In this document: positions 8,456 through 43,716 of the stretch, in pieces
Numbering within the stretch: position 1 is the first letter of the stretch
Layout: each line of letters opens with the position of its first letter
From: Owenia fusiformis
Taxonomy: Eukaryota; Annelida; Polychaeta; Sabellida; Oweniidae
Length of the DNA: 64,000 nt
Reading direction: 5' to 3'
Assembly (NCBI GenBank): GCA_903813345.2
Contig: CAIIXF020000004.1
Location: forward strand, 10,734,196 to 10,798,195
Program-made: the position numbers and the translations under genes
Notes under the pieces: generated by a model
What the model saw: only the letters and a program-made list of their open reading frames with translations
What the model was told of the DNA's origin: nothing
Databases searched by the model: none

Positions 8456-8677
8456 AAATCTCGAACTCGGCAACCAGCGCAGCTGTGAATGCTTTAACCG
8501 TTTGTAGTTCTTCTATAGGGGTACGTTTGCGCTCTTCAAACGATATAGATGAAAACGATCTCATTACAGCCAGTTTACTTAGGCTCTGTGTAGTGTCGAA
8601 GACAAGAACCAGATTAACTTTACGTTCACAAGGTGGTACGGTTACAGTGGTTGGTACTTCAGTAGTCGTAGATTGTG
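8456..8677 (-). CDS. CA-VWA gene, exon 15 (VWA2 start)
   Basis: 222 nt, acceptor TGATTGTAG, donor GTAAGT. Begins with more linker (QSTTTEVPTTVTVPPC) then VNLVLVFDTTQSLSKL, a VWA first strand with DxTxS metal motif. An unusual segment MRSFSSISFEERKRTP sits in the following helix region. Ends AALVAEFEI plus one base, so at least one more exon must follow; none was found at lower coordinates. Confidence 0.9.
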
Positions 8678-11600
8678 CTACAATCAAATATCATTTAAAA
8701 TATGTGCAATGCCTGGAACTATAAGATGATCTAGATATCGATGTTGTTAACTGCACTTGAGCGTTTTGAGATAGTTGCATTTTTAGATTGCCCTTTTTTA
8801 TTGCCAAGTACCATTGCCATTGCCATTGCCAAATATAAATAGCTGGCAAGAAAATGAACGAAAGATCTAGAAGGGATAGACGGACGGACGTGTGGTTTCT
8901 CTATACCCCCTCGAATTTCGTTCGATTGGAACATTTTAAAGATGTGCTGGTCCCTATCCCTTTAGGCACGGCAGTCACATGGTAAACTAATGACGTAGTC
9001 ATGGTGTCTTTTCAGGTCGTAGTTTTGGTTTTACTGCAACAATTACTTTTTCTTAAAACTTAAATGAATAAACACAATACAAGCAGCCCACGCGTCTCAA
9101 ACTCACAAGGTACACAGTATACAAATAAAATGTCTGGTACTTACTAATCATTGAAACGTATATGAACCGTTCTTACCATCTGTAATAGGAGTAGCACCAG
9201 TGACGGTTTCGGTAAGTGGTTCAGTGGTAGTTGTAGGTTTAGATGTGGTTGTGGTACTATCCACACACGGCTTAAAATGGTTTATCACAAGGGTGAGAAA
9301 ATGATCGACTGATTCTACGCTAGCGTCGAGCCTACGTCCGAATCTGTTTCCTAAATAGCCCTGAATCTCGGTCTCTCCCTCCTTTCCCCATCTATGGACA
9401 AAATATCAAAATGTATATATTTCACTTGCTTTCCCAATTCAAATCGAGGTATAGTACTACTTTTTAATTAATTGGCCAACACCTACTTGTTATCTAATTT
9501 TATCACATATAGATCCGTTGTTTTTTGTATTGCCTGAGCCTCAAGGATCGTACCTAAAAGAAAATAATTTAAAAAATAAGTCCTCTTTCGAAGGATTGAA
9601 AAAATATTGAAACACTTTTATTTGAAAAGAGAAAACAATCGCTGGATACCATGGTCCTTTTTTCTTACATCATAGATTGCTATGGCATTTGGCTAATAAA
9701 GGCACTTTTGATTTAGAATTGGTGAAATCGACGGACGAATCAATTTTTTTTAACAAACATGTGATTTAAACGTCACATCTCAAAAGGAAATCTCTTAGCA
9801 ACGGTATAATAAACACTATCCAATTGACAAGGTCAATTCATGGCAACGTTCTATAAGTATTCACTTATTTCTAACAGTTCCTATGAACTATTATATATTT
9901 TTCATACGAATGAATTCTTATACCATTAGAAATAAACATTTAATAAATTGTGAATTTAAACGGAAGGAAATACGAAGATTCTTTAAAAAAGTACGTCAAC
10001 TTTTTACAAGAGTAAACCCCCCGGGAATTTTAAGATTCTATGGAAAGCCCCGACTACTCTATCAGTGGGATTGGCACGGAAAATCAGAGATACTGAACAC
10101 AGACAGGTTTTTAGGAACGATGTGTATCGGAATCGTGGAAAACATGTATTTTGTTATTAAAATTCATTTTTTCAATGTGTTTTTTATAAAAATAACCTTG
10201 CCATTGCCGAAAAATCATTTACATTCGTATTTCTGTGTGAGTGACTGAGTATTTCTGTGAATGAGTGTTCAAAATCTGAATAAATAGGCAGACGAGTCGT
10301 TTTTTGAATATGTTTGAAACTATTTTTCGCCGTGTCACTTTTTTCCCCTGGTTACGTCACTAAAAGATTCTTTTGTCAATAGACGTATTTTAAAATACTC
10401 ACGCCTTCTGCCACCATATGGGAAAGTCCTGCCGTCTGTGAAAATAATCACTACATCTGTTGACTCTGGTAGTTTTCGTATACCATACTCAAGACGCGAA
10501 AGGCGACTTTCGAAAAATCTGAAATAATAATTATTTCTAAAAAGCATGCATATTATATGGAACGGGTGGAGCTTTTGTTTTCGTAATGTCAGAGTTGTCT
10601 TCCATGGATGACTAATTGACAATAGATTTCGATTTCCGAAAGTCATCGTGACGTTAGATTTAAGCGGACGGTTTCCGAACATTTTCTTGGTGTGAGAGTT
10701 GACGTTAGAGGTTTATTGAATCCTTCTTACTATGTCATCGCCTTCTAGAATCCAAGACCCATTCAAACGCGAGTATGGTATCATATGACGATGGCGATTG
10801 CACTGAGGAAATACGAGATTTTCTACACCCCCACATTTCCCGCGCCCCTGCACCTCCTATAGGATATCACCTATCAATGATTCTCGAACGTTCTACATCC
10901 CCTCAGCTCCAACGTCCCCACACAAGTATTATTATAAGGTGCCCTGATTGGTCGAATGATTTCCAGAGTGACATAAGTGTGAATTACCTGTGATAGGACG
11001 CTCTGATTGGTCAAATACAAATGACGCAGTTTAATAAAAGTAAATCGATTCTCCTACGTTCAGATGATTTCCGAATGTTTTTGTGACATCAATTGTCCGT
11101 GGATGACTGATACTCCGATCGGCCAATTCATTTTCAGAGACGATTGATAAAATTACTAGATTGGTGAAAGTTCAATTTAAGACTCCAGATTTCAGATTTT
11201 CTATTAAAAATATGATTTTGACGTCTGATATTGATGAATAAATGAGAAACAAAATGTATATGTTCTATCCTACCCAAATTGAAACCAGAATATTAGACTT
11301 TTATAATCGTCGAAAAATAATAAACCATACCAAGGATAATTGACGGAATGTAATTTTGTCATAGATTTGGACCTTTGAACTAGATAAAAATTTGAAGTAA
11401 TTTCCGAGAGACTTGGTCATATACCATTCTAGTTACTCAGAAAACGTACAAAGAAAAATAACTAGTTTGGTAAAATTGAACAAAGTTCAAATGAAGACTC
11501 CAGAATCAATTTTTTCTTTGTGTAAAAACAATTTTGAGATCTGATATTAATGAGAAAAAGAAAATGTTTATTACATTTTCCTCGCACAAAAATATTTTTC

Positions 11601-14600
11601 TCACAAAGTTAAAAGCAAAAGAAGGACGGAAAGTATGGCATTATATTTCAGAGAGTTGTATGTTGGATTTTGGCTATTTTCTGAGGATTTTAAGGTGCAT
11701 ATGTAAGGCTAATACATTTCATCCAGGAAAATCACTCATAGAGATGATTAAAATGTTTCGAGTTTGAGACTGGGTAGATGGAAACAACCTTTCATCCCTC
11801 CTTTTTCAATTTTTATTGAATCGATATGTTGAGTTTAGAGACAAAGTTAAACCCCGACAAGACTCGGCCTTACTACTTATACGTAGAACTGGACAAACAA
11901 ATAACAATATAATGCTGTTGTTTTTTATATACAGTACTATGTTCCCTAAAACATACTTACCACTTCGAAAAAACTGTTTTTTCTGTACATTGAACCTAAA
12001 CTTGATAAGGTTACAATATCAACCCCAGTGCATATTAAAAAAATAATAATAACGAAAATGTCCGGAAATCGTCGGAGGACGCAACGTCCACGCCAGGGTC
12101 ATGCTAGCGTTAGGGAGCATGTCATACTCAAACTATACATACATTTAGTGACCCATTCTTTTAACATTAACCTAAATCCACTGTAACTAAGGCGATTTCG
12201 TGAACTGGTAATATAATGATCTGGGAAACACCCAATTAACTGCGTTAATTTTCATAAAATCTTTTTTTTATAAAATACCATTCAAGGATCAAGATAAATG
12301 AATTCCAAATCAAATGCATTAAATGTCCGGAAAATCTTTATCTAAAAATCTAAAATCTTTTTTTTTATAAAATACCATTTACCGGATTTTCTCGCATATA
12401 AGCCCTGGGCGTATAACTGAAAGAAGGGGTAATTTCGTCTGTTATTTTACCTCTTATTTTTCGCCCATGGGCGTATAAGTGTACTACTTTCGATTTTTGG
12501 CCCAGTGGGCGTTAAGGTGAGAAGAGCAGATGAATACCGTACCTACTGTTGTAGTCCTACCGCATGTTTTGTAAGAATTATAAAGGAAATGTCACCTACA
12601 ACCTTGGACTTAACGTTGAAACAAAGTAACAACAGAACGATCCACCGCTGCTACTTACATGACTTACGGCACAGCGTTGAACTTAATGTTAAAACAAAGT
12701 AACGACAGAACGATCTACCAGTGACAAAATACTCTTGAATTTATTGAAAAAAACATTAAATAGTCATTTTTTATACGCCCATGGGCGTATAAGCGTACTA
12801 CATTCGATTTTTGGCCCGTGGGCCTAAAGGATCTTGTACACCTGCCATTATGATCTCCCCATGAACAAAATGAATCATTTTAGGTGTGATATAAAGAATA
12901 CAATGTTACATAATACTTTGGAAAACATTTAAGCGTTTGGCCCCACATGGGCTGAGGTTGGGGTCATTAAGTTCAGCAAGGGTGTATTGACTTGACATTG
13001 GATGTGTTCTATTGACTTAACATGTGGATACCATCAGATTCCAATGGAGGCCATTGGTTTTTATTGATTTTCACAAAAATACCTAAAATACACTATGACC
13101 TGAATCGATTGCAAATTAAATAATTTCACAGTATGACACAAATGGTATTTCAGATCAGATGTGCAAATATAAAGTTTGCAATCGATTCAGGTCATACTTC
13201 AAATTAAAAGATTATTCATTTTTTTCATCATTTTTTTCCTACAAAATGGCTATAGAAAAATGCTTCAAAAGCAACTTTTACACTTATGAAATCCCATACA
13301 ACTTTGTAAATCCAAAGATTATACTGTTATGATTCATTAATTAATAACATATTTTGATAAGATGTAGGGATGTGTAGGATGCAAATGGATTTTGACAGAC
13401 ACAAAAAGACTTCCTGGTTTGGCATCTCTACCCCTGTACACTTTATGATTGAATATTGCCCTAAAAAGTGGCCCATTCATCAATACAGTGCTGAATATTA
13501 TAGGTCAACAAGATACTAGTGTACATATAAATGTAATAATAAAAGCAGTATATTTATTTTGAAAAATCAGATGAATTTATTTTTGTTCATGGGGAGATCA
13601 TAATGGCAGGTGTACAAGATCCTTTAGGGGGGCGTATATGCGAGAAAATCCGGAATTCCAAATCAAATGCATTTTCTAGAATAAGACTTCAAATCCCTTG
13701 ACTTTAATCCCTTCCAGTAAACAACCTTAATATCTTACCGTTTTCTCACATCAAAGAGGGCTCTGCCTGTCCTAGTTTCGCAAGTTTCATTTTGACCAAT
13801 CTGTGTATTACTTATTAGTTTTTTCGTCACTTCATTATTTGTTGTGTCTCTTGCATAAAATTCGAAATATGGGTTTCTATCATATCTAAATAAATATAAC
13901 AAAGATTTGTAATCGTATAAAATATTCAAGCCCAAATAAATATAACCAAATCAATTTAATTTTGGATTGTACTGTTTTCATGTTTGCATGACATGGGTTA
14001 ATCATAAATTTCCGGGCACTAAGTAATTTGATTGGCTTTTTCGGTTTACAGTTCTTTCAATATGTTACATATAATATGAGATGTTCTGATTATTATCAGG
14101 TACTCAACGCAGTGGATTAAAATTGATCAATTTGCATTCATAAAACAAATTGAGTGGATCATCACATTGCAGGCATGTCAAGTAAATCAATCAATCAAAA
14201 TGCCCATATTCACTTTAACATTGTCTTCACTACCAATTTACGGCTAATTATAACATACTCACTTTACCAGCGTCATTAGAACGGAGTCACGACCAATTAT
14301 AACTTTTTCTGTGACGTTGAGAAGTAATTGTTTTACTCTATCCATTTGATCATAAACTGAACAACTTTGATCTATTACCCAAAAGACATTCGTGCAAGCT
14401 GAAATAAAATGTTTTAAAATCAAGTACTAAAGCTTTGATTTTTAAGAAATTCAACTCTAAGGGTTTTCTTTAAAAAAAGATGACAAGTTCAGAATCAAAT
14501 AATTTGTCCAAATCCTTTAAAGATCCCGTTTCTCTATTATACTCATAGCACTTGCTAATGTTACCTTAACTTTCCTCAATAATAATTTTCAAATAATTCG

Positions 14601-17600
14601 ATCTTTTTTTGAGAATATGCTCGTTAAAACAGCTATTTTTGGGACAGTCAATATAATTTATTTCTAAAATGTGTTAATATCAAAGTTTCTTACATTTCTT
14701 CAGTGGGTCATGTAGATCATCAAAACGGGGATACCATTGTAACTCAAAATTCCGTGTTACCTCGCGTTCATTCAGGCTCTGTACGGGCCTACTGAGACCA
14801 TCAAGAGTTGGACTTCCATCGGATCCTTTAAGCCTTCGGAAAGCCTCAAACTAAAACTCCAAACATTTTAATTATGATATGAAGGACGATTATAGATTCA
14901 AATTGTCATTTAAAATTAACATAAAAAAGCCACATGGTGTACAGAATCGCACCCTTGAACAGAATACACTTTTCGGGATGAAAAATCCAAAAGTGCCACC
15001 TTAACATTTACCCAGAATGCCGAAAAACTAATCAGTTATAAACTTTCACACTAGGTAGAAACATCCCTGAGAATTTCAAATTAATCCCTCAAACGGTTTG
15101 GCTGGAAACCTGTAGACAAGCCTTGACAGACACGATTTTAGGATGAAAAATCCAAAATGGCCACCTTAACATTTACCAAGAATACCGAAAAACTAATCAA
15201 TTCTAAACTTTTATAGGTAGAAACATCCCTGAGAATTTCAAAAGAATCCCTCAAACGGTCTGGCTGGAAACCTGTAGACAAGCCTTGACAGACAAGATTT
15301 TAGGACGGAAAATCCAAAATGGCCGTCTTAACATTTACCCAGAATGCCGAAAAACGAATCAGTTCTAAACTTTCAAAGGTAGAAACATCCCTGAGAATTT
15401 CAAATGAATCCCTCAAACGGTTTGGCTGGAAACCTGTAGACAAGCCTTGACAGACAAGAATTTAGGACGGAAAATCCAAAATGGCCGCCTTAACATTTAC
15501 CCAGAATGCCGAAAAACTAATCAATTCTTAACTTTCATGGGTAGAAACATCCCTGAGAATTTCAAATGAATCCCTGAAACGGTTTGGCTGGAAACCTGTA
15601 GACAAGCCTTCAAAAACAAGATTTTAGGATGGAAAATCCAAAATGACCGCCTTAACGTTTACCCAGAATGCCGAAAAACTAATCAGTTCTAAACTATCAC
15701 AGTCTGAAACATCCCTAAGAATTTAAATTGAATCCCTCAAACGGTTTGGCTGGAAACCCGTAGACAAGATTACTCGGGACGCCGGCCTGCCGGGCAAACT
15801 GATTACAATATAGCACCTAAGGGTGCGATAAATATGAAGCAAGTCTCTATCATTAAATTTGAAGAAATAAAATCTGAAAGAACCATTCACCTGAATATCG
15901 GCTATAAATCTATTTTCCTTAAATACGATTCGAAGAATACCTTCATCACAGGATGGTGAAGAGAGACTTCCGTTGTATCGATAATATCTGTAATAATATA
16001 GTTATTAACGGATACTTCGGAAAGTTGTGAACCCCTCAAATCCACTGTACTATTGCAATGAATATACATGTATCATGATTTAGAAATAAGATTTAGGAAC
16101 ACAAGGGTTCTCGGATGATCTTGATTTGACTTTGCGGTACAGAAATGTTAATTTAACTGTGGCTCCAAAAATAATTAAAAGGATTATAGGCCATCTTAAA
16201 AAGATTTAAAGAAATGGCCTCCGTTATTCGCACTAAATATATCCTTTGAATCATACTTATCTCATTTTCCCCGCCGATTCAAATTTACCTAGCCTATTAA
16301 CTTTTTTATCATCGAATTTGCCACTGACATTGATCGTATTCCTTTTATATTTGACTCTATGTATAGACCAATCAAACTAATGAAACAATAAACAAATTGC
16401 AATAGCTTTCAAATTAGGTTAGTTGATTACATGAATTAACCTTGAGATGCACACTAAAAATCTACCAAAATTAAAAATGATGGAACAATTTAAAAAAAAT
16501 AATCAAATACACCCCCTACCCCACCCCCTTCAATTTATGAGTGTATTACTAAAAATACATATTTCTTAAAGTCGAGGTCTTATTTCTACATACTTTAGCT
16601 TGACCACGACTGGATATTGTTTTTCCGAGATAATAAAATTGTTTTAAGAAAAATATCATTTGTCTTCTTTTTAACCCTTACAAACCCAGAAAAAAACAGA
16701 AAAAACTTAAATTACACATATACTAATTGAAAGGTGTGTTTTTTATTACTTGAACCTTCTAGAAAATGTTCTATGATTTATAAAGATGGACCAGCATTAT
16801 AAACTTATTATTCCCATGTAATATTGAAATGATAAGTTTATTGAGTCTTGAGAAATATATTTCTTGATACCGTGTGGTTAGGCTACTAGAATGAAGGACA
16901 GAAAATGCGATTTATACAAACGAGAAGAAAGGGAAGAATAAGGTAATGTTGGCGTTTCATATTTCTTGTCACCACGATTCAAGGAAAACCACTTTATGGA
17001 TTTAGTTCAAATTTTAACACTTATTACATAAAAGAGGGTTCTAGAGTTGATTAACTTTCGGTGGCCATCTTGAATTATGGTGGCCATCTTGTAAGTTTTG
17101 AAGATAAATATTATCATCACGATTTGAGGAAAGCCGATCAATGGATTTATTTAAAATTTCTTCATATGTTACATTGTAGGAAGTACAAGAGATGATAATA
17201 TTTTCAGCAGCCATCTTGTTTTCTGGCGGCAATTTTGGAAGTTTTTTTAATCTTGCCGTCACTATTCCAGGAAAACCACTGGCCGGAATTACATCAAATT
17301 TAACATATGTAATTACATGATGAGATGTTCTACAGCTGGTTAAACATTATGGTTGCCATCTAGCTTTCTGGGTAAACAAGCCCTTACTGTTATTTTTTGG
17401 GTACTATATTGTTTATCCTGTGCCTTGTTCTACATAGTACTCATATATTTAGACACATTGTTGATTGGTATGGTAAAAGTTACTATAAGACTATGACTGC
17501 AATATGTAAGCACGAGTGCTGAAGGGTACGGACCGAAAAATGATCAGGACACAATAAGAAAAATAAAACATTTAAGTATACATCAATCAGATGACACCCC

Positions 17601-29600: not shown

Positions 29601-32600
29601 TATTATGTTGGTTTACTACTTTATGTACATCGATGTAAGTGCATGCATTTAAATTAATTGAATTGACACAACTCAAAAATTTAATGTAATGGAAAATAAT
29701 ACCTATCTTTGAAATAGTCAGGTGCTGGCATGCTGTTCCTTAACTCGTATGTGCTGTCGAATAAATGCCACGAATTAAAGGTAGTGAAAATATGGATTTT
29801 CAATGTAATTAAACCCCACTTTGGTAACAACATGACATGATAAACTGTTAACTATCTTAAAAGAACAGTGAACTATTTTATTTTTGTTTTAAAAATTCAT
29901 GAATCATGAGCCATTTACCTTTCATGAGAAATATCGTGAGGTTTAAGTTAAATAAACAATTCGTATTGGATCTTAGAAGAACTAGTAGCCTCGGGCCAAG
30001 GCCGTCGACTATTTTCCTCCTAAAACCAGATGCGCATGGTTTATTCATATCTGAAATAATCAGTACAAGCTTTTTTACTTAATAAATTAGTGAAATATTA
30101 CCACTTAGCCACATTACAGTACTTGCATTTTGAAGGATGCAATTGGTTTGTATATGTCATTTTAACTTCTAGCCGTCCCATGATTGAATGTTAGATTTCC
30201 TTTGAAATTTAAATAACGTAAAATTGATACCCCTGATATCCTCTTTGACCGAGTCGTGGATATCATATACGATCACTTGCTTTGACTTGGTTGCAGCTCG
30301 CGGGAAGATCTGACTTATAAATCCAGGTATATCCTCGAATTATCAGCGTAATTCCTGCGTGTTCATTTCTATTATCCATCATTATGACACATCATTAATG
30401 GAATTGTTAGTAATGTAATGCAATTTAGAATGCCTCGTAATCTGGTATGAAATCATTTTTAAAATTGTTTGTGAAAACGTCGAAGAAAATGACATTGTAA
30501 TGATTCCTAATGAATTTTATGAAATGGTATAACTCTCATAAACTAGAGTAAAGGTTGATTTGAAGTTGTTATAAAATCAGCTTTGAAAATATTCTTACCA
30601 AGCCGACCATAGGCTTAAGTTTTATTGACATTGTTAGTAATATATTATGAACTAACAGTTCTTTGTAAAATGTGATTTATATGAAAGAATAACCTTGAAG
30701 AATTGTTTTTGAAAAATTCAAGGGAAATAACATCGTCATAATTCCACTCGGATGTAATGAAATTTTAACATGTCTTATGAACTTGATGTCAGATTATGAT
30801 GAAATTGTAATGAAATCCAAAGTATATGAGAAAATTCATCTTGTTGTGATACCCATTAGATGTAATGCAATCCTAAATTGCCTCAGAGTCTGGATTTTGA
30901 AAACATCAAAAGAATAACATTGTATTGATTTTCATTGGATGTTATGAAATGTCAAATGCCTCATAATCCAGAGCCAAGATTGAAATTAAATTGAAATGAA
31001 TTCAACTTTGTAGATAACATTGAAATTAGTTGTAATGAACTTTTCAAACGTCTCTAAATCTGAATTAAAGATTGTTAAAAAGTTGTAGTTAAATTAATTT
31101 GGAAGAATTGGAATCAATCGAATAAAAATAACATTGCAATGATTCTTATTTGATGTTTAAATTATAATCTTCCTCGTAATCTCAATTCAAGTGATTTTGT
31201 AGTGAAATTGTAATGAATCGACCTAGAAATGGCATATGAAAATAACAATGGACTTCAAAATGTTAGTTCTCTAATCACTAATAGGCAGTGTGTAAAGTAT
31301 AAAAAGCGTGTACATATATTTCAGTACAATTAAAAATCCAAATTTCTAATACCCCCCTAGCTTGACATAGGTGTTGCTGTCGTCATCTATCTGAGCTTCG
31401 TCGCCTTGATAACATAAAAGTCAAAATTTAGGATATTACAACATCACTTAATGCTTATAAAGGTTATATTATACATTACTAAAATTTATGTTAGCAAATA
31501 GGGTAAAAAAAAGTAAATGTCCAAAACATAATTTCCGACATTACGTATATAACGTGTGTACACCAATGAAACAATTCTGTGTAAAAAGCCTCAAAAACAC
31601 GTTCAATGATTAGATTGGCTTTCACAAACCATCATGTAATAACAATGTTTTTGTAAGATCCTTCCAATAAGCAAAATATGTTGATTTCGACATTGAAAAT
31701 CACATTTGAAATAAAACACATACGCTTAACGTATCACATTTACCATTTCGTTAGATACTAAAATGATAATTAAATGAATGGTACTTCGATCAAAAAATTG
31801 TGCTTTTTATATAGAAAATGCAATTTAACAGCTAAAAGATCCCACTTAAGCTGCTTCTTTCTTTTGAATAGAGACCATTATGTTATACTTTCGATTATTC
31901 ATTTCTTCAAATCCAATCTCCAGATCTAGGGAAAATATAAGCCCACGGTTTTTGTCCTAAAAATGTATATCTTATGATGTTAATCTACCACATGCATACC
32001 CTTTATGGTAAACAAAAACAATGTGTTGTTTTTTATAGGAAAGTAAAAAATGCATTAAGAAGTCTTCGTCGTGCTACCTTGACCTACTTTTGACCCATTC
32101 GACCTATTTTTGAGATCCGACTGCCCCACTATCCATTAGTGTTATAAATACGGTATCCACATTAAGGCAAAAAGTACAACAACGAATTCGTTTTGCGATA
32201 ATAATAATGGCCCTTATGAGTATCTATTACAGGTCACGTAATCCATTGTTGCCTGATTTATAGCAAAAAACATTGACTTTTGCAGGCCGGTGACGATGCG
32301 CTTTTTAATAGATCTAATATATTAGAAGCAAATGGGTAAAAATAAAATTGATACCATACCATACGCCTATTCGTTTAACAATTAAATAGTAAAGCATTTT
32401 TTGAAAACATAGATCTGCCAGATTATTTGCAAAAACTTCCCACTCAACTCCCTTCGTCTAATAACCATAATGCGTTTTAAGGCATGTGCATTACTTACCT
32501 GGATTTGTTATTGAGTATAAAGTTGTGTTTAATTTCTTTAATCCGTCATCAAGATATAACCTCGGCGATTCCATGTGGTTGTAAACCTGAAAGGAATCAT

Positions 32601-35600
32601 TGGTTTCATAAAAAACACGTTTCGACCCTTAGTTTCAAAGTTAGATAATTCTCAATTACTTCAGCTAGTGTTATATTCACAAATACAATTAATATAATTC
32701 TATACCGTACATAAACAAACAACAAGGACCACCATGTCTAAAATGCAATAATTGCTATGTAACATCGACCTCCTCATAGAAATCTTAAGTTAAACGTAAT
32801 TATTTGCTAACACATTCACAAAAGAAACCTACTATTACTTCTCATATCTAAAATGTATTAAAATGTAATGCAGCAATTATAAGAAATATAGTTTATTTGA
32901 ATCAATACATTTGTAAAAAAACTTCCAAATTCAGACTGAACCTTTCTTCATCTTGTGGCAAAAATTACAGGTCGCTGAATGGATTGAAGAGCCATATGGC
33001 TCTGACCCATGGTCTAAAATATTTTGTCCACATCTTACAGAAAATGTCAAAATATGATTTAACTTGACTCTTCTCGTGACATTGTAATATAATAAAAATA
33101 AAAAAAAATATCGTAGATTATATAGCATATTATCTATTTATTGGCTTTGAATATGAGAACTGTAATTCTAAATCCCTGGAGAGACTATCACTTTTCCTGT
33201 CTAGGCATGCTCTTCGTGAAATCATCCAGATATGTTCGAAAATACAATTTTCTATCATCGGAACTTAGCCATTTTTGCTTTCTCATATTAATAATATGGC
33301 ATATTTGTCCATTTTTCGTAAATAGTTTTGTCAAAGGTCCTTGTGCAGTATGGCAAGTGATTTTAGGCAGTCATATATTTCACCTTGAGTACTTTCTCGC
33401 CATAAATACAATGTTTTTTTTTTATTAAAACAAAATGTTTTCTTTCAAGTAAAGTCCCCGTGATAGTAAAATATAAATCCAACTCTTTAAAAAAGGTTAT
33501 GGATTATGGTCCCAGCACCTTGGCACTTTTTAAAAAATGCTAGGCTTATTTTCTAATAAAAAGAGGATCTCGTTTTTCTCAATTTAAACATATCAAAAGT
33601 TTATTCTACACTATATTAACAATTTCTGAAAAGGGGATGCGTATTGAAATGCGTTAAAGTTAAGAACTGCATACCCCATGTTATTTTCCCGTAGGGAAAA
33701 CTCGTGCTATCCATTGTTTTCAGCATCATTTTGTTAATCGAAATTGATATCTTCAAAACTAGCATTTCAATACCACTATAATTTTGAAGATGTTTCGATC
33801 CCTTGTTGAATTATCTTTTCATGCAATAAAAGTCAGAAAAATAAGATCCTCTTTTGAGTAAATAGGTTCAATTGGTTAAAAAATGTTGTCATCTCTATTC
33901 ATAATTTTTCGAATTGTTTGATATTTTTATCATCATGGGTAATTCACTTGAAAGAAAACATATTGTTTTAATAAAAAAACAATATATTTATGCCCAGAAA
34001 GTACTCATAGTGAAAGACGTGACTGTCTAAAATCACTTGCCATACTGCACGTGGTCTTTCGATGTACTGACTGGTTTATTAGGTAAATTCCAAGAAACAC
34101 AGATTTTTTTATTATAGTTTTGAATGATTTTATGTTGGAGAATGTCTCCAAGGAAAATGATATATCTCTTAGTTTCCAAAGTTGATGCTATGCAAGCATA
34201 GTAATTTTTTCTCCATTGAACATTCCTTAATTTTTGAGAGAGTTATTCCAAAATTAGTAGGTGGCATTTTTGTGTCACCCTGTACGATATTTGTTGAATT
34301 TTCAGCAGCCATTTTGAGAAGAAGACTTGAAAAATACAGTATACATAGAAAGCAAATGCTCGATAAACTTGAATCACACGGCAATCCAATTAAACACCTT
34401 TTCAACATGGAGGACGATTCCTTTTTTTCCATTATTGTATGTCTTGTGAAAATAATGTATGTATCTTTATTTCCCACATATATGTGGATTTCATATAAAC
34501 TTATATTACAGGCGCATTGACACTAGTATTCTGCTAGCGTCATTAATAATAACATCACAATTTTAAAGGTACAAGGTTAAATAAGAAAACAATACAATCA
34601 TGTGGTTAATTTTGTGCAGTGTTCGGAAATGGAGGTACCAATGATACATTATTTTCCCTTATCAATCAATCAACATAGTGTAAATACTCTGTAACTACAG
34701 TTGTTGAGATCTCTGTGTTTGAGTATGGTGGTTTGCAGATCATAGCACTGACGTTCGGTAAACGACTGAATTCTTCATCTTGGTTTAAGTTGAGGGCTCT
34801 GATTACTTTCTCTCTTTGCGAGTTGTGGTTGGCGCACTCTTGAAGAATATGTGAAATAGTGTCATTGTAAAGCATTCCACATTTTTCACACAAAGATTCC
34901 CTATTTTCGAGTGGCATTGATATCACCTTCGCCATTGTTAATGATTCTCTCAGTATCGTATGGTCCTTTAGAGCAGTTTTCCATAATTGGTGTTCTCTTA
35001 ATCTGTTTGTTGGTATCCGTGCATCTGTTCTGTTTGCTCTATTTTCAGAGCATATTTGTGTCTGTTTTACCTGATATCTGCAGATTTTATTCCATAGCTT
35101 GTTTGGTGGAAAGTATCCATTGTCAAGATAGTTCAACAATAGTCTTCAAGGTTGTGCTTTTCGAGCACATTCCATATATCCGGTATATAACCTTTCTGTA
35201 CAATTTTATTGGTTTTTAGATGATTTGAATGTGCTCTGAATAAGAAAACGTCCTTAGTTATTGAGGTTTGATTCATGTTGCATAGCCTTCCCAGGAACGA
35301 AAGTTTCCTACTGTGCTTTCAATGGGCATGGTGTCTGTGAGGCCATGAACATCATCTGTTCTGGTTGTTTTACTCAATTCTAGGAGATTTTTAAGTACTA
35401 GCCTTTGGGCTCTCTCTAGTTCAAGTATATTGCTGTTAGTTAGATTGTGCCAGAGTTCACATCCATAAAGCGCAGACGGTATGCAAATTGAATTTATCAG
35501 TTTGAGACCAGTTAGCGGATTAAGACCCTTGGGATGTACCCCTATGCCAACTAGGGACGCAAACGAGCCTCTCATCTTCTGACACGCATTGGTGATAGTG

Positions 35601-38600
35601 CGTTGGCGCTCTAGTGTTGATTGAAACAAGTTTTCAAGATGTTTCATTTTTTCCGTTTCATTCATCTCCCCTATTTCTGTTGTCCATCTTCGAGTTAGGC
35701 GTAATTTTTCATTTGTCTGTTTTGATTCTCCAAAAGTCATAATTGATGGTTTTCCTACTTTGAAATTAAAACGCCATTGTTTGGAGTAATCAATGACTAT
35801 TGACATCATGCGATCTAATGCTTGTTTGGTGTTAGCTATTAGAGCAATGTCGTCCGCATATGTCGCAATGCAGCAACGGATGTCGTGCATCATTGTTCCG
35901 TAACCTGAGTTTTCTATCATAATCAGGAGTTCGTCAATGTAAATGGTATACAGCCAGCCAGATAGAATTCCGCCCTGCCTCACAGATTGTTCAATTGGAA
36001 ACCACTCTGACTGATACCCTTTAAATACTATAGCACCCGTGTTTATATTGTTCATCAAGGATGTTCCAGAAGCGCCCGCGGATTCCTAGATGATGCAGCT
36101 TTAGAAACAGACCAGAGTGATACACGGTATCGTAGGCTTTGGCGCTGTCAAAACAGGAAATAAACGTTTTTTGACCGCGTTCTTTGTTATAATATATTGT
36201 CTCCAGAATGTTAAAATTACATGAGTATCACAATCACCATGCATGTGCTCATACATGATACATATTTATTTGTTCATTTATTTACTTATTTATTTATTAT
36301 GAAGTATTAACTGTGTGTGTTGTTATATACTGTTTTCTGTTGTATATTGTAAAATTAGTGTTTACTTTGTTTACACTTAACCCTTTATGGGTATGCATGT
36401 GTAATAAAGTTCATGAATCTAAATCTATGTGAGAACTACAGACCATTAATTTTCTATTAATTTTCCATTGCTTTTTGAAAATAATATTATTATATTGTTT
36501 GAATCACTATTACTATCACTATATTTTAAAAGCCCTAACGAAATTTATGGACCCGTGACTTCTATTTTAGCTAAGAATCGTTTCCTTAGGCTCTAGGTCA
36601 GATATGGTCACGCGTAGGCATCCGAAAGGGGAGGGATACGTTTCTATTTTTAAGTCGCGGAATTTGTCCATACATGAAGCTTAGAAAAAATGACACTCGA
36701 AGGAAAAAAGATTGTGCTCTGGCGAAAGAGTTTTCGAAGTCACTTTAACGGGTGGTCTAGCTACACGCCCTTGTGACACCATTAGGAAATGAGTTAGAGA
36801 AGTGAATGATTAAATCCATCTGTTTTCAACTAAAAAAAAAATTAATTTCATGAAAGATATATGGTTTTAAATGGACTATTGACTAAACAAAATACCTTCA
36901 TACTTTTCTGTTAAAGTTGACTACGAAAGGGAGTGCAAAGTGTACCATAATTTTACTGCTTCCCGTATAAGTCATCTCACAAGGTGTTGCCTGATCAGCC
37001 AACTACTGACAATGCGCCTCAAACCATTCGTGCCAATAACATGTCACTTACCGTAAAAAGAACGCTAAATATAGCTCTCCCATTAGGTTTTCCCACCGCG
37101 TCCTTGTATTCGACATACATATTTGTATTCCATGTCATAATTTGCAACTGTAAAATATGAAAGTAATACTACATGACGTTAATCAGACATAAAATTTAAG
37201 TAAATACACTCGCATTTAGAGAGGTTTCGCACAAGGGTTAGCACCCGTATCTCGTTGCGTTTATGGATACGTATTTCAATAAATTTCGGTTCGCAGTATT
37301 TTTGGAAATATGAATTAGAAATGCATCTCAATCTGCGACGAATAGTAGTCCGAACAAGAGTCAAATAAATGATTTCATCTGCATTAAGATTTCACAATGT
37401 GCAGATTAAACATAGGGATACGACCTATGACGTACATTTTCTGCATCGGTTTTCTGAAGCAACGGCCGTCGAAGAGAAAAATTATTGTAAGCTTAAAATG
37501 CGCAGTAACACTAGCTTGTGTTCTTAACTCTTCCAACACGGAGCCACAAGTGACCAAAGGTCAAGGCCGAAAGTGTATAAAAATCGAAGTAAGATAAATA
37601 GCCATATATGATTGCAACCGGTTAGTATGAAAGTAAACATATGATTAAACTTATGAAGAATTGCTATCTTGTTACAAATACATTCGGATAAGTAAACATT
37701 TTACCTCAAGTGGTTTTTGTTCGCCATCTATGATGTGCTCTGCAGGCCACTTAAATATGGACTCATGTACCCTGTACTGTCCGGGCAGGGCACCAAGGTC
37801 GTAAAACACCAAATAATGCTTCGTTGGAATCGTCATTAGAACTGAAGTATAGAAAATGAGAACGTAGTGATCATTTTAAATGTGTATATTTTATATATTA
37901 TGTGTTACTATAATTTTATAATAGAGTCGTTAAAACAGCTTCCTTTGATGAGGGCTGTCAAGGTCCATACATAACGGCTGTACATAATAGATGTATTCAA
38001 TACCAGCGAGTTCCATCAATCCTATACCTTTTATATGTTGTATATGATCTTAAGGTCAGACTTGATTTTCTCGAACGATTTTCTTTTTTTGTTATTTCAC
38101 GAGTTGTAAGCAGAATTCCCAAGACATTTGTATCACAAACCTGTCATATATTCTAGAAAAGCTACAAGTTTGCGAACAAATAGTTCAAGTTCAACGGAAT
38201 TGTCGATTTTATACTTCACTTAGACAGCGAAGCATTTTTGGCACTCAAAAATTTATTGTGAAAGATAATTGACAATTTACCATATAATGTCAAAAATATA
38301 CCTCCCTAGGTCACGTTAACCTCAATTTGTTGACCTTTGTTGACCTCATTAAAAAAACTTTCTTGGGTAGGTTGAATGGTTTATAGAAATACCAGCAATA
38401 TTGAAATCAGACAAGTGATAAAAAGCCAGAGGGGGGGGGGTCAGAATGACTTCATAAAGGTTAAAAAGAAAGTTAATCGACAATTATTCGCGAATCGCGT
38501 TCTCTTCACGAATTTTAGAAAAACGTTTAATTAAAAAACTACTTGAGGGACGAAGAAAATTACATTTTAATTAATTGTCTAATTAGTGTATTTTGGCACC

Positions 38601-41600: not shown

Positions 41601-43716
41601 ATAGTTTATTTCTACAAAATACCAAAGCAGTCCCTGGTCAACCCTTGTAGTACATGCCAGTTATGCAATCGTGATCCAAATGACAATTTGTAATGCAACG
41701 ATATACCAGTGGTTATATGATAGATGTTTAATGGTCCAATTTTCATCGTTGGTCAATGCTTATTTTCAACATAACGGGCGGTAGAATTCTCATAGTTATG
41801 TAATAAATCACCCTGCCCACTCCGACACAGACTTGCATTGCTATATATACAACTTAAAGGACTATTAGTATATTCGATCAATAAATATTATTTATTTCGT
41901 TACTGACCTCCGTCACCAATGTTCGTCAATGTAGCTCCTGTTAATCGTTTTCTATCATTTAAAAGAAATAACGGGGTGCGGTTGGGGTCTATCAAAGTGT
42001 CCATTGCTCTTATTTCTATTGGTGATTGGTTCTGGCCGCCGCATGTTGGATACTTCTCTTTCCAGTTAGCGGGACCTGTAAAATAAAATTTGTTTACGTC
42101 TACTATTTACACTCTCCTCTAAAAGCTTGTCAACTAGACGTTCAATTTTAGATCATGAGTCATTTAAAGACCATTCATATTCCATGAATTAACCTTTATT
42201 ACAATGACACATTGTAACATCAATATTCAATGCATCTTTTGAATTAAAACCATTTTCGTATAAGAATTACAACGTAACAATGTGCCATTTTAATACCTCT
42301 AGATTGTAATAAGCCATACGCCCCCTGGCGTGTCTTTATCACTTTTATGTAAATATGTCACATGATTTTGTTAAAAAAGATGAATAAAAATTGTCAAGCG
42401 GCACAAATCTTACCCAATGGTGAAGTTGGATCGTAATTCCAATCTGAAAATGCAAATATCAAACATGTCTTAACTAATGCAAATGGTATTACAACCTAAA
42501 AATAAAACTAGAACGTTTCGGGCTCACCAAACAATGAAGGGCGCCTTGGACGCAAAGTAACCAACCCGAACATATTTGAATTCTACCCTGTGTGCAGAGT
42601 CTAGTTATGAGCTCTACCAAGTATACAGGGCTTCATGATGACCGTCTCCACATCCATTGCCCATCCAGGCAATACTAGATCACATGCTTCAATAATCCAT
42701 ATACCGTAATAAATTCTGGACCAAAACTTAGCATGCCTGATTTTTAGGACATAATTTATGAACTTGAATTCGGTAGTCACTTATCTCCTCAATTTGCTTG
42801 TTTTATGTCTACTATTCCTGATGAATTTAAAGAGAGGAGTAGAATGCTATATAATCCATTATATCATCTAGTGCTCTCTGGTCATTTCTATGAAATATTT
42901 AATACTTTTGTCTTTCAAATATCATTAAGATATATCCTAAGCATTATACATTACTATTGATATTTGTATATATATTGCATTGAGGCATGGTTACCATAGC
43001 GATTAGCAGGACACATGGCCAATATTGGAAAAAAATGGTTTTCAGATTATTTGTAAAAACCGTAGAGCTTCATCAAAGTTGTTTCAATAAGTCCAGAATT
43101 GAACGAGCTTTCATATGATGTATAACATATGTGGGTCTGCTATTTAGGATTGGTGCTTGATGAGGGGGAAGGTCAAATTATGAAACACCCTGTAGACTAT
43201 GTTACAGTTAAGCAGCCCAGTAATACTATAGTCAAAGGGAATATTACTGTACTTTGTACATTGACCTAGTGTGCCTTTGGATAGAAGGGTTAAAAACCTG
43301 AAACCCAGCATATTCCTATTGGGCAAAATCCCAATTGCCCAATCAAGTCCCACCGTGCCCCATACAGCCCCATAATATCCCTGACACCTTGCTAGCTTCT
43401 CCCAATGGAGTCTCATCGAGTCCTACCATACATTTTCGCTGATACATTGTACATGGCATTCCGATTGCCTCTAAGACCCCGAATGCTAAAAGGGTCTGAT
43501 TTGTAATCCATTAGTTTAGAATTTCAGATTGTACATAATGGAAAATATGAAATCAATTAGACTGATATAAATAGCAAACTAGATAAACATATCAAAATGC
43601 ATGCTAACACGTGTAAAATTCAAGATTAAAACTTTTAACATCGGGTGGATAAGATGGAAGAAGAAAACATTACCTTTTCCATATGCTAGGAGAGGTAGTA
43701 GTAAAAAGACCAACAT
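8456..43716 (-). CDS. Secreted protein: inactive carbonic anhydrase fused to VWA domains (15 exons, 3' end missing)
   Basis: Join of 15 exons (listed separately), 1771 nt, 590 codons, all splice phases consistent. Residues 1-13 or so are a signal peptide (MLVFLLLPLLAYG). Residues 15-275 are an alpha-carbonic anhydrase: WNY and GPANW at the start, CGGQNQSPI, AEHIIDG, YYRYNGSLSS and RPVQSLN. Cys36 and Cys218 match the disulfide of secreted family members. The zinc ligands His94, His96 and His119 are Ile109, Lys111 and Gln128; His64 is Asp79; Thr199 is Ser214; Glu106 is kept (Glu115). The domain should therefore not hydrate CO2. Residues 291-487 are VWA1 with a complete MIDAS (Asp299, Ser301, Ser303, Thr374, Asp412). 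A Thr/Pro linker (490-530) leads to VWA2, whose MIDAS begins Asp544-Thr-Thr546-Gln-Ser548. The rest of VWA2 and the stop were not found. Secreted matrix or adhesion role is inference; the domain identities are secure. Confidence 0.9.
9177..9391 (-). CDS. CA-VWA gene, exon 14 (VWA1 end and Thr-rich linker)
   Basis: 215 nt, acceptor TTTTGTCCATAG, donor GTAAGA. Ends VWA1 with VDHFLTLVINHFKPC and then codes a Thr/Pro linker (STTTTSKPTTTTEPLTE), probably O-glycosylated and extended. Confidence 0.9.
9487..9553 (-). CDS. CA-VWA gene, exon 13 (VWA1)
   Basis: 67 nt, acceptor TTTTCTTTTAG, donor GTAGGT. Encodes TILEAQAIQKTTDLYVIKLD, the helix-strand pair (A..lk..gi.lYvIgi) of VWA domains. Confidence 0.85.
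10403..10518 (-). CDS. CA-VWA gene, exon 12 (VWA1, TDG strand)
   Basis: 116 nt, acceptor TTATTATTTCAG, donor GTGAGT. Encodes LPESTDVVIIFTDGRT, the central strand ending in the conserved MIDAS Asp412. Phase 2 in, phase 1 out. Confidence 0.95.
12382..13653. mobile_element. Non-autonomous TIR element in intron 11
   Basis: The left end starts CCGGATTTTCTCGCATATA and the right end is TATATGCGAGAAAATCCGG. A longer match inside (GGATCTTGTACACCTGCC at about 12829 against its reverse complement at about 13600) shows that the right arm continues inward. In the left arm the two parts are separated by about 400 bp that contain a direct repeat of GGGCGTATAAG units (about 12470 and 12785). No transposase and no clear target duplication. 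Confidence 0.6.
13739..13885 (-). CDS. CA-VWA gene, exon 11 (VWA1 middle)
   Basis: 147 nt, acceptor TATTTATTTAG, donor GTAAGA. Encodes YDRNPYFEFYARDTT and on to ETRTGRALFDVRK. Thr374 in RTG is the third MIDAS residue of VWA domains. Confidence 0.9.
14263..14398 (-). CDS. CA-VWA gene, exon 10 (VWA1 start, MIDAS)
   Basis: 136 nt, acceptor TTTTATTTCAG, donor GTGAGT. Encodes CTNVFWVIDQSCSVYDQMDR, with the DxSxS metal site Asp299-Ser301-Ser303, and the helix that follows. Ends in VLMTLVK, the second strand of the VWA fold. Confidence 0.95.
14694..14850 (-). CDS. CA-VWA gene, exon 9 (carbonic anhydrase C-terminus and junction to VWA)
   Basis: 157 nt, acceptor GGAGTTTTAG, donor GTAAGA. Encodes FEAFRRLKGSDGSPTLDG then RPVQSLNEREV, the C-terminal strand of the fold, then about 20 residues of linker (ELQWYPRFDDLHDPLKK). 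The next exon begins the VWA domain, so the fusion junction is at an intron. Confidence 0.95.
14946..15829 (+). mobile_element. Helentron/pearl-like element with 162-bp tandem core (intron 8)
   Basis: Subterminal inverted words ATCGCACCCTT (14946-14956) and AAGGGTGCGAT (15819-15829) bound the element. Between them are five copies of a core containing CCAGAATGCCGAAAAACT at about 15011, 15176, 15338, 15500 and 15662, that is a 162-165 bp period. The 3' end has a hairpin (GCACCTAAGGGTGC) after a G/C-rich segment. This plan (short ends, tandem core, GC-rich segment, terminal hairpin) is that of pearl-type elements, classed as non-autonomous Helentrons. It ends about 60 bp from the exon 8 donor. 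Confidence 0.65.
15891..15987 (-). CDS. CA-VWA gene, exon 8 (YYRYNGSLSSPSC)
   Basis: 97 nt, acceptor TATTATTACAG, donor GTGAAT. Encodes YYRYNGSLSSPSCDEG, the hallmark SLTTPPC loop of carbonic anhydrases. Thr199 and Thr200 are both Ser here, and Cys218 is the second disulfide cysteine. It is separated from exon 7 by a 15.4-kb intron filled with transposons. Confidence 0.95.
16000..16940. other. Intron 7 sequence, nothing recognised
   Basis: AT-rich intronic sequence without repeats or exons that I can support. Confidence 0.4.
16960..17400 (-). repeat. Fragment of a pearl/Helentron-like tandem core
   Basis: Units of about 165 bp with CAAGGAAAACCACT and GGTGGCCATCTTG, ending TTTTTTGGGTAC at about 17387-17402. 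Similar units lie at 48474-48740 and 51800-52150, and the latter family has GTACCCAAAAAA at its other end, an apparent subterminal inverted pair. Confidence 0.45.
17871..18476. repeat. Large imperfect palindrome in intron 7
   Basis: The left arm (about 17871-18090) contains GTCAACTTTATTTACATAAA; the right arm (about 18250-18476) contains its reverse complement. Arms of about 220 bp match at about 75-80% by eye. Likely an old foldback MITE. Confidence 0.55.
18600..19441 (+). repeat. Pearl/Helentron-like element, 3' part with hairpin tail
   Basis: Contains runs such as TGACCTTTGACCTTGAAAA that recur at 23460 and 24060, and ends in an ACGG-type run, GGTCAATCCCATAGGCTCAC, a GGCTCAC-TGT-GTGAGCC hairpin and an A-run. 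The tail is nearly identical to 7130-7196. The 5' boundary is not clear. Confidence 0.45.
20394..21688. mobile_element. TIR transposon, 1.3 kb, in intron 7
   Basis: The left end starts CACGGTGTATAACCCAAACG and the right end is its reverse complement; the TIRs are about 49 bp and nearly perfect. Both flanks are TATATATA, so the target duplication cannot be sized. The decamer GGAGCGTTTC occurs exactly at least seven times in both orientations (20430, 20449, 20826, 21193, 21226, 21614, 21643), two of them in the TIRs, as expected of transposase-binding repeats. It carries a small two-exon ORF (20472-21003). Superfamily not recognised. Confidence 0.75.
20472..21003 (+). CDS. Small two-exon ORF inside the TIR element (45 residues)
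   Basis: Exon 1 (20472-20501) starts in a strong context (AAATAAAATGG), encodes MAANEDSTMT and ends at a consensus donor GTAAGT. Exon 2 (20896-21003) follows the acceptor ATCATTTTCAG in phase 0 and encodes 35 residues from IIREEFRIESILQKRVVLVR to KRATS and a TGA stop. The product is small and charged, and I recognise no domain. It might be the N-terminus of a lost transposase, a captured host exon pair, or a real microprotein. The splice model is inferred from sequence only. Confidence 0.4.
22110..23240. other. CACTA-like element interior, no gene seen
   Basis: AT-rich, with a poly-C run at about 22852 and a poly-G run at about 23108. No exon or repeat family recognised. Confidence 0.4.
23254..24699 (+). 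mobile_element. Helentron/pearl-like element, second copy type
   Basis: The subterminal inverted words TATCGCACTTTG (23254-23265) and CAAAGTGCGATA (24688-24699) bound it. The interior has repeated units with AAAATTCAAAATGGCCGCCA and CCAGCAT...CCTAATCAGATCTTGG, including a long direct duplication (about 23400-23870 and 24000-24480). Before the 3' hairpin (GCACTTTTTCAAAGTGC) lies a C-rich run of GCCCGC units. Same plan as the element at 14946-15829, with different sequence. Confidence 0.65.
24880..25500. repeat. Degenerate short repeats around ACCAATGCCAT
   Basis: Words such as ACCAATGCCAT, CCAAATAT and GAACCAATG recur through 25080-25310, with poly-G runs at about 24916 and 25028. The 143-codon minus-strand ORF over this is a by-product of the repeats. 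Confidence 0.45.
25560..26130. other. CACTA-like element interior, no gene seen
   Basis: AT-rich sequence without recognised features. Confidence 0.4.
26786..26831. repeat. Poly-G/poly-C inverted repeat
   Basis: A G-run followed by TGCGAT, then ATCGCA followed by a C-run, makes a hairpin of about 17 paired bases with a loop of about 10. The nearby phrase GCGTAACCAGGGGG resembles other copies at about 26130 and 28390 (CGTAGCCAG), a common dispersed repeat. Confidence 0.65.
27440..27514. repeat. Additional CACTA-like right terminus
   Basis: Reverse-complemented, this starts CACTGTATAAATTGTGGAAT and continues with TTTAGACGTGC, matching the right end at 29179. It marks a second, diverged member of the family nested in or next to the larger element. 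Confidence 0.5.
27515..29030. other. CACTA-like element interior, no gene seen
   Basis: AT-rich, with a CGTAGCCAG-type repeat and poly-G run at 28390-28560. No coding evidence. Confidence 0.4.
29225..29340 (-). repeat. tRNA-derived SINE
   Basis: On the minus strand an RNA polymerase III A box (TGGCCTAGTGGTTAAGG, 29311-29327) is followed by a B box (GGGTTCAAACC, 29247-29257). The spacing and T-arm fit a tRNA, but the anticodon and acceptor stems do not pair well, so this is a SINE head or tRNA relic rather than a working tRNA gene. It lies just outside the right end of the CACTA-like element. Confidence 0.7.
29420..30400. other. Intron 7 sequence, nothing recognised
   Basis: AT-rich, no support for exons or repeat families. 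Confidence 0.4.
30400..31240. repeat. Highly diverged tandem repeat, about 80-115 bp units
   Basis: The phrase GATGTAATGAAATTTTAAAT-GCCTCATAATCTGGA recurs in degraded form at about 30411, 30520, 30750, 30858, 30938, 31037 and 31152, usually preceded by ATAACATTGTAATGATT. It ends about 110 bp before exon 7 in genomic coordinates. Confidence 0.5.
31353..31404 (-). CDS. CA-VWA gene, exon 7
   Basis: 52 nt encoding DEAQIDDDSNTYVKLG, matching the segment before the YYRYNGS motif. The acceptor is TGTTATCAAG and the donor is an unusual GTATTA. The boundary is supported because it gives phase 2 and joins exon 8 as LGG-YYRYNGS without a shift. Confidence 0.8.
32499..32586 (-). CDS. CA-VWA gene, exon 6
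   Basis: 88 nt, acceptor GATTCCTTTCAG, donor GTAAGT. Encodes VYNHMESPRLYLDDGLKKLN and NP, the helix after the central strand of carbonic anhydrases. Two N-glycosylation-like sites cannot be judged further. Confidence 0.85.
32590..33330. other. Intron 5 sequence, nothing recognised
   Basis: AT-rich intronic sequence. Confidence 0.4.
33331..34064. mobile_element. Palindromic MITE in intron 5
   Basis: Arms of about 140 bp (33331-33470 and 33925-34064) share GCAGTATGGCAAGTGATTTT, TGAGTACTTTCT and AAAATGTTTTCTTTCAAGTA-like words in opposite orientation. The centre has no coding evidence. Confidence 0.6.
34645..36190 (-). mobile_element. LINE fragment with reverse transcriptase (minus strand)
   Basis: Reading 36190 down to 34666, the frame gives SCFDSAKAYDTVYHSGLF (RT motif), then VRQGGILSGWLYTIYIDELL and TYADDIALIA (the YADD active site), then thumb sequence and a C-terminal zinc-knuckle-like CEKCG...HILQEC. 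A frameshift lies near 36055 and at least one more between 35273 and 35139. After the last codon comes a (TTGA)n tail. The 5' part is missing, so it is a dead, truncated copy. Confidence 0.85.
36208..36425 (+). repeat. LINE or SINE 3' tail
   Basis: A TTTATTTATTTA run and a GTGTAATAAAGTTCATGAAT end followed by CTAAATCTA look like the 3' end of a plus-strand retroposon. The coding part is absent. Confidence 0.35.
36430..37051. other. Intron 5 sequence next to exon 5
   Basis: No exon or repeat recognised. Confidence 0.4.
37052..37147 (-). CDS. CA-VWA gene, exon 5
   Basis: 96 nt, acceptor ATATTTTACAG, donor GTAAGT, phase 0 on both sides. Starts LQIMTWNT where active enzymes have LHLVHWNT, so the third zinc ligand (His119) is Gln128. 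Continues through KPNGRAIFSVLFT, the PDGLAVxGVFL segment of the family. Confidence 0.95.
37705..37841 (-). CDS. CA-VWA gene, exon 4 (zinc-site strand, ligands lost)
   Basis: 137 nt, acceptor ATACTTCAG, donor GTAAAA. Encodes the QYRVHESIFKWP segment, where the family has YRxxQxHxHWG; both histidine ligands are replaced (Ile109, Lys111) while the following Trp112 remains. Then AEHIIDG, corresponding to SEHTxDG, keeps Glu115 (family Glu106). Confidence 0.95.
38880..38945 (+). repeat. GGCA/GGCG short run (pearl-like tail)
   Basis: AGGCAGCAGGCAGGCAGGCG followed by GGCGGG after TGACGATCTTG. It resembles the GC-rich segment before the hairpin of the pearl-like elements; no hairpin follows. Confidence 0.35.
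39240..39450. repeat. Diverged direct repeat (pairs with 40440-40645)
   Basis: CCTGTATTTCATATTTTTAC through CTTTTCATAACTCACACG matches CTGTATCTCGTATTTCACAA through TTTTGCATAACTCATAAA at about 70% by eye. The copies bracket two inverted repeats (39650-40255 and 40312-40432). Confidence 0.45.
39650..40255. repeat. Inverted repeat unit in intron 3
   Basis: Ends ATTCTAACCTACAGTGGGG and CCCCACTGTAAGTAGAAT are inverted copies, and inside are GGCTCCCAGAATGCAACAT (39907) and ATGTTGCATTCTGGGAGTC (39994). Probably a MITE. Confidence 0.5.
40312..40432. repeat. Inverted repeat, about 42-bp imperfect stem
   Basis: GAATTTTAAAGGAAATGGCT near 40312 pairs with AAGCCGTTTTTAAAATTCC near 40414, with a loop of about 35 bases. 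Confidence 0.55.
40805..41486 (+). repeat. Purine tract of (GAA/GGA)n, about 680 bp
   Basis: The plus strand is almost only A and G: GAA and GGA triplets in long runs, broken by a few C or T bases. It lies in intron 3 of the main gene, so the pre-mRNA carries a long pyrimidine tract about 420 nt after the exon 3 donor. ORFs of up to 312 codons on both strands are products of the triplet repeat and are not genes. Confidence 0.95.
41908..42075 (-). CDS. CA-VWA gene, exon 3 (carbonic anhydrase N-terminal part)
   Basis: 168 nt, acceptor TTTTATTTTACAG, donor GTCAGT. Encodes GPANWKEKYPTCGGQNQSPI and onward to LTNIGDG. It holds conserved Cys36 and the QSPI motif. The N-x-G-H segment that carries the His64 proton shuttle reads N-I-G-D. 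Confidence 0.95.
42414..42443 (-). CDS. CA-VWA gene, exon 2
   Basis: A 30-nt micro-exon between GCATTTTCAG and GTAAGA, encoding DWNYDPTSPL. It matches the start of the carbonic-anhydrase fold (the WxY segment). Phase 1 on both sides. Confidence 0.85.
42465..43140. other. Intron 1 sequence, nothing recognised
   Basis: AT-rich intronic sequence without recognised repeats. Confidence 0.4.
43144..43196. repeat. Solo end of a CAGGGTG-type element
   Basis: Read on the minus strand this is CAGGGTGTTTCATAATTTGA, like the mariner-like ends elsewhere in the window. No partner end seen. Confidence 0.3.
43674..43716 (-). CDS. CA-VWA gene, coding exon 1 (signal peptide)
   Basis: Encodes MLVFLLLPLLAYGK plus one base, followed by donor GTAATG. 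I chose this ATG because it opens directly into a hydrophobic signal sequence. Two upstream in-frame ATGs would add MPIALCNFMFTFRTYR. A possible acceptor (CACTTTTAG, then GACCTACAGG) just upstream suggests an untranslated 5' exon. Confidence 0.75.

Follow-up and report, generated by a model that had tools for sequence, protein, structure and literature searches.

A putative secreted adhesion or matrix protein of Owenia fusiformis joins a carbonic anhydrase fold lacking its zinc ligands to von Willebrand factor A domains

Carbonic anhydrase (CA) domains without one or more of the zinc-binding histidines are described as carbonic anhydrase-related proteins (PMC2873310), and CA10 is an inactive CA that binds neurexin (PMC8024894). 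CA10 and CA11 are secreted, and the CA-like domains of PTPRG and PTPRZ are extracellular (PMC8024894). Contact between a CA and a von Willebrand factor A (VWA) domain has been reported from nacre, where a pull-down with the recombinant Pif97 VWA domain recovered the CA nacrein (PMC11291548), and CA and VWA are among the three domains shared by the skeletal matrix of four corals (PMC11959691). A search of the open-access literature for one protein with both a CA and a VWA domain returned no description, which is a weak negative.

The window, the whole stretch of 64,000 nucleotides under analysis, is C4:10734196-10798195 of a 498 Mb assembly, which was also the genome searched. Its minus strand carries a gene of 15 exons (43716-43674 to 8677-8456; Table 1) that was rebuilt independently by scanning for CA and VWA fragments and then fitting splice sites, and the rebuilt chain, with agreeing phases, was identical to the one proposed in the initial annotation. 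The coding sequence in the window amounts to 1771 nt, or 590 residues, and stays in one frame without a stop across 14 junctions, with AG before and GT after at every internal exon edge. It encodes a signal-like start, a complete CA domain, a first VWA domain (VWA1), a Thr linker and the start of a second VWA domain (VWA2). The N-terminus is hydrophobic and resembles that of both tandem paralogues described below, and is read from its sequence as a putative signal peptide. The span originally given, 43716 to 8456, held for these 15 exons and fell short of the gene's end: the remainder of VWA2 was sought in window positions 1-8409, was absent there, and was found off-window instead. Exons 16-18, which continue VWA2, occupy C4:10719144 to 10710851 (window coordinates -15051 to -23344), 15-23 kb past the left window edge. 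A 19th exon is likely near window coordinate -25973 and is perhaps followed by a short last exon, and the full protein would run to roughly 800 residues.

Exon 7 is the weak point of the model. Only the first half of this exon matches the paralogue, it ends at a poor donor (gtatta), and it measures 52 nt in the window copy vs 70 nt in the right paralogue. A search for a better exon 7 between ~32490 and 16010 (partly from 37000), using the CA consensus and the second half of the paralogue's exon, yielded nothing convincing. We also looked for an extra exon separating exon 9 from exon 10 and dropped it once the paralogues revealed that exon 9 itself extends further. Two introns hold repetitive sequence. 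The one separating exons 3 and 4 contains a GAA-like triplet in ~225 copies (window 40804-41481), and the one separating exons 5 and 6 contains open frames of a LINE-like element at 34669-36227 on the minus strand, the gene's own, one of them with an RVT_1 match.

Table 1. Exons of the gene and neighbouring features, in window coordinates
Feature	Position	Strand	Evidence
Exon 1, signal-peptide-like start MLVFLLLPLLAYGK	43674..43716	-	similar exon in both tandem paralogues
Exon 2, WNYDPTSPL, N-terminal CA part	42414..42443	-	rebuilt gene model
Exon 3, CA, first Cys, QSPIEI motif, Asp79 replacing His64	41908..42075	-	gene model
Exon 4, CA, Ile109/Lys111 replacing His94/His96, six-residue deletion after Trp	37705..37841	-	gene model, family comparison
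Exon 5, CA, Gln128 replacing His119	37052..37147	-	gene model, family comparison
Reverse transcriptase fragment (RVT_1, 8.8e-13), not part of the gene	35279..36085	-	Pfam match; intron between exons 5 and 6
Exon 6, CA, VYNHMESPRLYLDDGLKKLNTTLYSITNP	32499..32586	-	gene model
Exon 7, CA, GDEAQIDDDSNTYVKLGG; second half without paralogue support	31353..31404	-	nucleotide similarity, first half only
Exon 8, CA, YYRYNGSLSSPSC, Ser214 replacing Thr199, second Cys	15891..15987	-	gene model
Exon 9, CA C-terminus and link to VWA1	14694..14850	-	gene model
Exon 10, VWA1 start, metal motif DQSCS	14263..14398	-	gene model
Exon 11, VWA1, metal-site Thr region CETRT	13739..13885	-	gene model
Exon 12, VWA1, metal-site Asp, FTDGR	10403..10518	-	gene model
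Exon 13, VWA1	9487..9553	-	gene model
Exon 14, VWA1 end and Thr-rich linker	9177..9391	-	gene model
Exon 15, Thr linker end and VWA2 start DTTQS; gene runs on off-window	8456..8677	-	gene model
Late-exon part (VWA2 end) of the right (upstream) tandem paralogue; exon starts at ~64062, off-window	63917..64000	-	sequence comparison

Profile searches agree with this domain order. The Pfam CA profile (PF00194) matches residues 25-272 at 8.6e-45 (153.8 bits vs a cut-off of 27) over profile positions 2-254 of 254, and the VWA profile (PF00092) matches VWA1 at residues 293-442 at 1.9e-12 (48.2 bits vs a cut-off of 23.8). The start of VWA2 within the 590 residues, taken alone, gave no Pfam report; joined to the off-window exons 16-18 it is reported at 1.6e-12 (48.4 bits). 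No collagen match was returned by the Pfam scan of the 590 residues, and no chitin-binding domain by the scans of the window gene and the right paralogue, which covered each up to its last one or two exons. Among the best 60 of 236 matches of the CA domain to solved structures, ordinary CAs stand at the top (1.5e-21), and one structure of a CA-related protein, 2w2j, ranks below them at 7.9e-18. For VWA1, the sole solved-structure sequence match at E <= 0.001 was collagen VI alpha 3, at 3.3e-10 summed over many weak stretches of which none passes alone.

The gene is one of several of its kind. A genome search with a blended VWA1 query, in which only the best candidates were scored, returned 17 matches at E <= 0.01, and 13 of these fall at seven loci (three each on C4 and C1, one on C3), a minimum for the family. 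The other four have lower scores (25-29 bits) and adjoin no CA match. At all seven family loci found, CA exons precede VWA1, and VWA2 matches were seen at six; none was seen at the C3 locus in the genome search. The C4 loci form a tandem array of the window gene and two further copies with the same exon chain, all on the minus strand. The right paralogue spans window coordinates 77939 to 64511, plus an exon at ~64062-63917 that reaches into the window, and was assembled into 18 exons and 752 residues without a stop, its 18 phases identical to those of the window gene (Pfam: CA 1.3e-53; VWA 2.1e-26 in two stretches). The left paralogue starts at window coordinate -87750, and its exons were seen individually. 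As the right paralogue keeps the same phases and no stop, the worry that the window model reflects an assembly or alignment error is answered.

The array also shows repeats of its own. In the left paralogue (L018:4474-4938, on C4), the 3' part of a CA exon, ending in LNKTLYSITNPG, is tandemly repeated with a period of 106 in 4.4 copies at 96% match; the repeat gives five translated matches and represents either alternative exons or an exon that was duplicated recently. Two stretches lying downstream of the right paralogue, at window positions 48092-48437 and 52157-52339, show 70-81% similarity to sequence that follows the window gene in matching order; they are not clearly coding. Between the two genes, units of 339-368 bp are repeated 2.0 to 3.8 times in arrays at 46175-46851, 53939-55329 and 59185-60251.

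The initial annotation had described a CA pseudoenzyme fused to VWA domains, and this architecture is supported by the CA-VWA1 order at all seven loci and by a spliced frame across the CA-VWA1 junction, which was built at two of them (the window and the right paralogue). It is scarcely credible that a CA gene and a VWA gene have been wrongly joined into one model. An unspliced reading beyond exon 9 does meet a stop within a few codons in the window copy, as a separate CA gene would have it, although this is not so in the two tandem paralogues. The conserved order at seven loci speaks against such a join, as does the intron between exons 9 and 10, which is only 295 bases long in the window copy, and exon 9 itself, which is stop-free up to a good donor and has a counterpart in the right paralogue with the same phase. 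As the unspliced reading ends soon after exon 9, a CA-only product of the window copy through intron retention is possible.

The CA domain of this fused gene has lost its zinc site. Positions such as 94, 96 and 119 are numbered by what we take to be their counterparts in an alignment to CA II. In the window copy, Ile109, Lys111 and Gln128 occupy the places of His94, His96 and His119, so the ligand set of an active alpha-CA is not present, and Ser214 stands at the place of Thr199 and Asp79 at that of His64; all five substitutions had been called in the initial annotation and recur at the same positions of the rebuilt protein. By the broad definition (at least one zinc histidine lacking), the window CA is a carbonic anhydrase-related protein. 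At positions 94, 96 and 119 the family reads I/K/Q in the window copy, I/N/Q and K/N/Q in the right and left paralogues on C4, H/R/Q, H/R/H and N/N/T in C1a, C1b and C1c, and F/F/M in the C3 copy; the exon translations behind this comparison occur verbatim in the genomic DNA, first residue apart. His96 is therefore gone from all seven loci, while His94 is kept in two (C1a and C1b) and His119 in one (C1b). Thr199 is likewise gone from all seven, replaced by Ser in five and Pro in two, His64 is kept only in C1a, and Glu106 in just four of the seven. Family members with all three histidines, which the earlier reading had named as a sign of error, were sought in this genome and found at none of the seven loci. 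The two cysteines it had pointed to, which are presumably the disulfide pair of secreted CAs, are present in the window copy (exons 3 and 8) and kept at every family locus.

Non-fused CAs of the same genome served as controls. Among eight such loci, the best-scoring CA matches, Thr199 is kept in all eight, and the two in which the exon for positions 94 and 96 is present keep both histidines. A further non-fused CA, L038 (C3, ~26.073-26.077 Mb), has Arg at position 94 and keeps His96, His119 and Thr199, possibly as a separate loss like that of CA VIII. Immediately after position 97, which is Trp in six loci and Leu in the left copy, all seven fused loci have a six-residue deletion that is absent from the three non-fused CAs compared (L004, L008 and L038). 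From the shared deletion and the shared CA-VWA1 order we read the fused type as having arisen once, and the residues at positions 94, 96 and 119 suggest to us that its zinc site decayed stepwise. That other residues instead preserve a metal or catalytic role for the fold is very improbable. The His94 of two members, one of which also has His119, could be taken as a remnant of such a role, but His96 and Thr199 are missing from all seven, and the residues that replace them vary among members, as under relaxed constraint.

VWA1 keeps its metal motif. The MIDAS motif of metal-binding VWA domains consists of DxSxS, a Thr and an Asp, and as a sequence motif VWA1 of the window copy fits this pattern with DQSCS, CETRT and FTDG. 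DxSxS is found in VWA1 at all seven loci (DQSCS in three, DESCS in four), and the Thr and the Asp are present at every locus where their exons were read (six of six and four of four). At the three loci where VWA2 was read, its motif is DTTQS in both the window copy, where it is not a strict DxSxS, and the right paralogue, and DTSQS in C1a.

Selection was compared among the three tandem copies over 209 CA codons and 190 VWA1 codons present in all three; the comparison excluded exons 1, 6, 7 and 15 entirely, the final part of exon 9, the linker stretch of exon 14 and any codon interrupted by an intron. Pairwise dN/dS was 0.43 (window-right), 0.47 (window-left) and 0.33 (right-left) for CA, and 0.38, 0.56 and 0.26 for VWA1 in the same order; codon sets chosen pair by pair gave 0.43, 0.47 and 0.32 for CA and 0.38, 0.57 and 0.22 for VWA1. 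None of the six pairwise values has a bootstrap range that reaches 1. Of the three branches, that of the window copy is highest (CA 0.58, 95% 0.34-1.21; VWA1 0.62, 95% 0.36-1.10; 5% of resamples at or above 1), that of the left copy intermediate (CA 0.38; VWA1 0.45, range up to 1.57) and that of the right copy lowest (CA 0.26; VWA1 0.14). The pairwise and branch values together indicate that the tandem family is constrained, the window copy least. With the highest branch value and half of exon 7 unsupported, the window copy may be drifting.

It is rather unlikely, all the same, that the window copy is a pseudogene in decay within a family that otherwise works. Its branch dN/dS, the shortened exon 7 with the weak donor, and introns holding the GAA-like run and a retroelement are what decay might leave, but 18 exons without a stop or frame break and remaining splice sites with AG and GT are not. 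Random substitution of the 590-codon sequence, in 1000 runs each at an assumed 0.1, 0.2 and 0.28 per site, yielded a mean of 6.9, 12.1 and 15.1 stops, and 1, 0 and 0 runs of 1000, respectively, were free of stops; about 7-15 stops would thus be expected in the part of the gene within the window, which has none.

The six further CA-VWA genes in the same genome show that this is a real family, more likely of matrix or adhesion proteins than of enzymes. As one of seven members, the gene probably encodes an adhesion or matrix protein that is secreted and consists of a zinc-less CA fold, two VWA domains and a Thr-rich spacer. Secretion and extracellular work in adhesion or matrix are what we infer for the protein. 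Its CA domain, held by the kept cysteine pair and the core motifs, would offer a surface for binding protein or glycan, the VWA domains would capture partners through a divalent metal, and the Thr spacer, probably glycosylated, would keep CA and VWA apart; such a protein would not hydrate CO2. By analogy, the binding role of the inactive CA domain might resemble that of CA10. An adhesion or matrix role with a metal site in VWA1 had been put forward in the initial annotation; the metal site fits the DxSxS seen at all seven loci, and the role stands as a proposal. Where the protein would act is our guess: the tube, a gland or the epidermal matrix.

A tie to biomineralisation had been raised as well and found no support, as nothing links the gene to mineral. 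As a biomineral matrix protein, the fusion would fix the CA-VWA partnership of pearl oyster shell within a calcified or cemented structure, an idea for which the pull-down of nacrein by the Pif97 VWA domain (PMC11291548) and the occurrence of CA and VWA in the skeletal matrix of all four corals compared (PMC11959691) can be cited. We consider it improbable, as nacrein is described as an enzyme (PMC11291548), whereas the window CA is without zinc ligands. No chitin-binding domain appeared in the Pfam scans, which ran up to the last one or two exons. The host, moreover, is an annelid, and Owenia fusiformis builds sand tubes, not shell. Its genome gives three above-cut-off matches to the erythrocruorin linker domain, a marker of annelids; 14 control genomes, which are hardly informative about animals, gave none.

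More tentatively, the family could be an old animal CA-VWA lineage in which the zinc site was lost ligand by ligand (His94 with His119, His94 alone, none) while the VWA metal site stayed fixed, metal use having shifted from an enzyme to an adhesion domain to give an adhesin of tube, gland or matrix. The fusion may, by analogy, be a covalent form of the CA-VWA contact seen in the oyster nacre pull-down. Seven genes in one genome display intermediates of zinc-site loss together with the joining to VWA adhesion domains, so that the change from enzyme to adhesin becomes testable residue by residue within one animal. In addition, a protein annotated as CA in a matrix proteome does not necessarily carry out CO2 chemistry. 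Each part is known separately; the search of the open-access literature returned no report of the joined CA-VWA architecture, which here occurs at seven loci and shows steps in the loss of zinc ligands.

The nearest described systems each share a part of this design. VWA1 resembles the VWA domains of collagen VI alpha 3 (3.3e-10, summed over weak stretches), and collagen VI has, to our knowledge, no CA domain. The window protein differs from CA VIII, X and XI and from PTPRG and PTPRZ in joining VWA to CA, as we know of no VWA domain in any of these; its deletion was compared with three non-fused CAs of the same genome only. The likeness to them lies in a CA domain without at least one zinc histidine (PMC2873310). 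Nacrein is a CA of an extracellular matrix, as we propose by inference for the window protein, but PMC11291548 presents it as an enzyme that bears a Gly-Xaa-Asn repeat, and the 590 residues of the window protein contain no such repeat. Pif/BMSP proteins are described with chitin-binding domains and without mention of CA (PMC3374290, PMC11291548), whereas the window protein has a CA domain and no chitin-binding match. Like the window protein, they bear VWA domains, and they are matrix proteins of molluscs and other lophotrochozoans; the VWA domain of Pif97 binds nacrein (PMC11291548).
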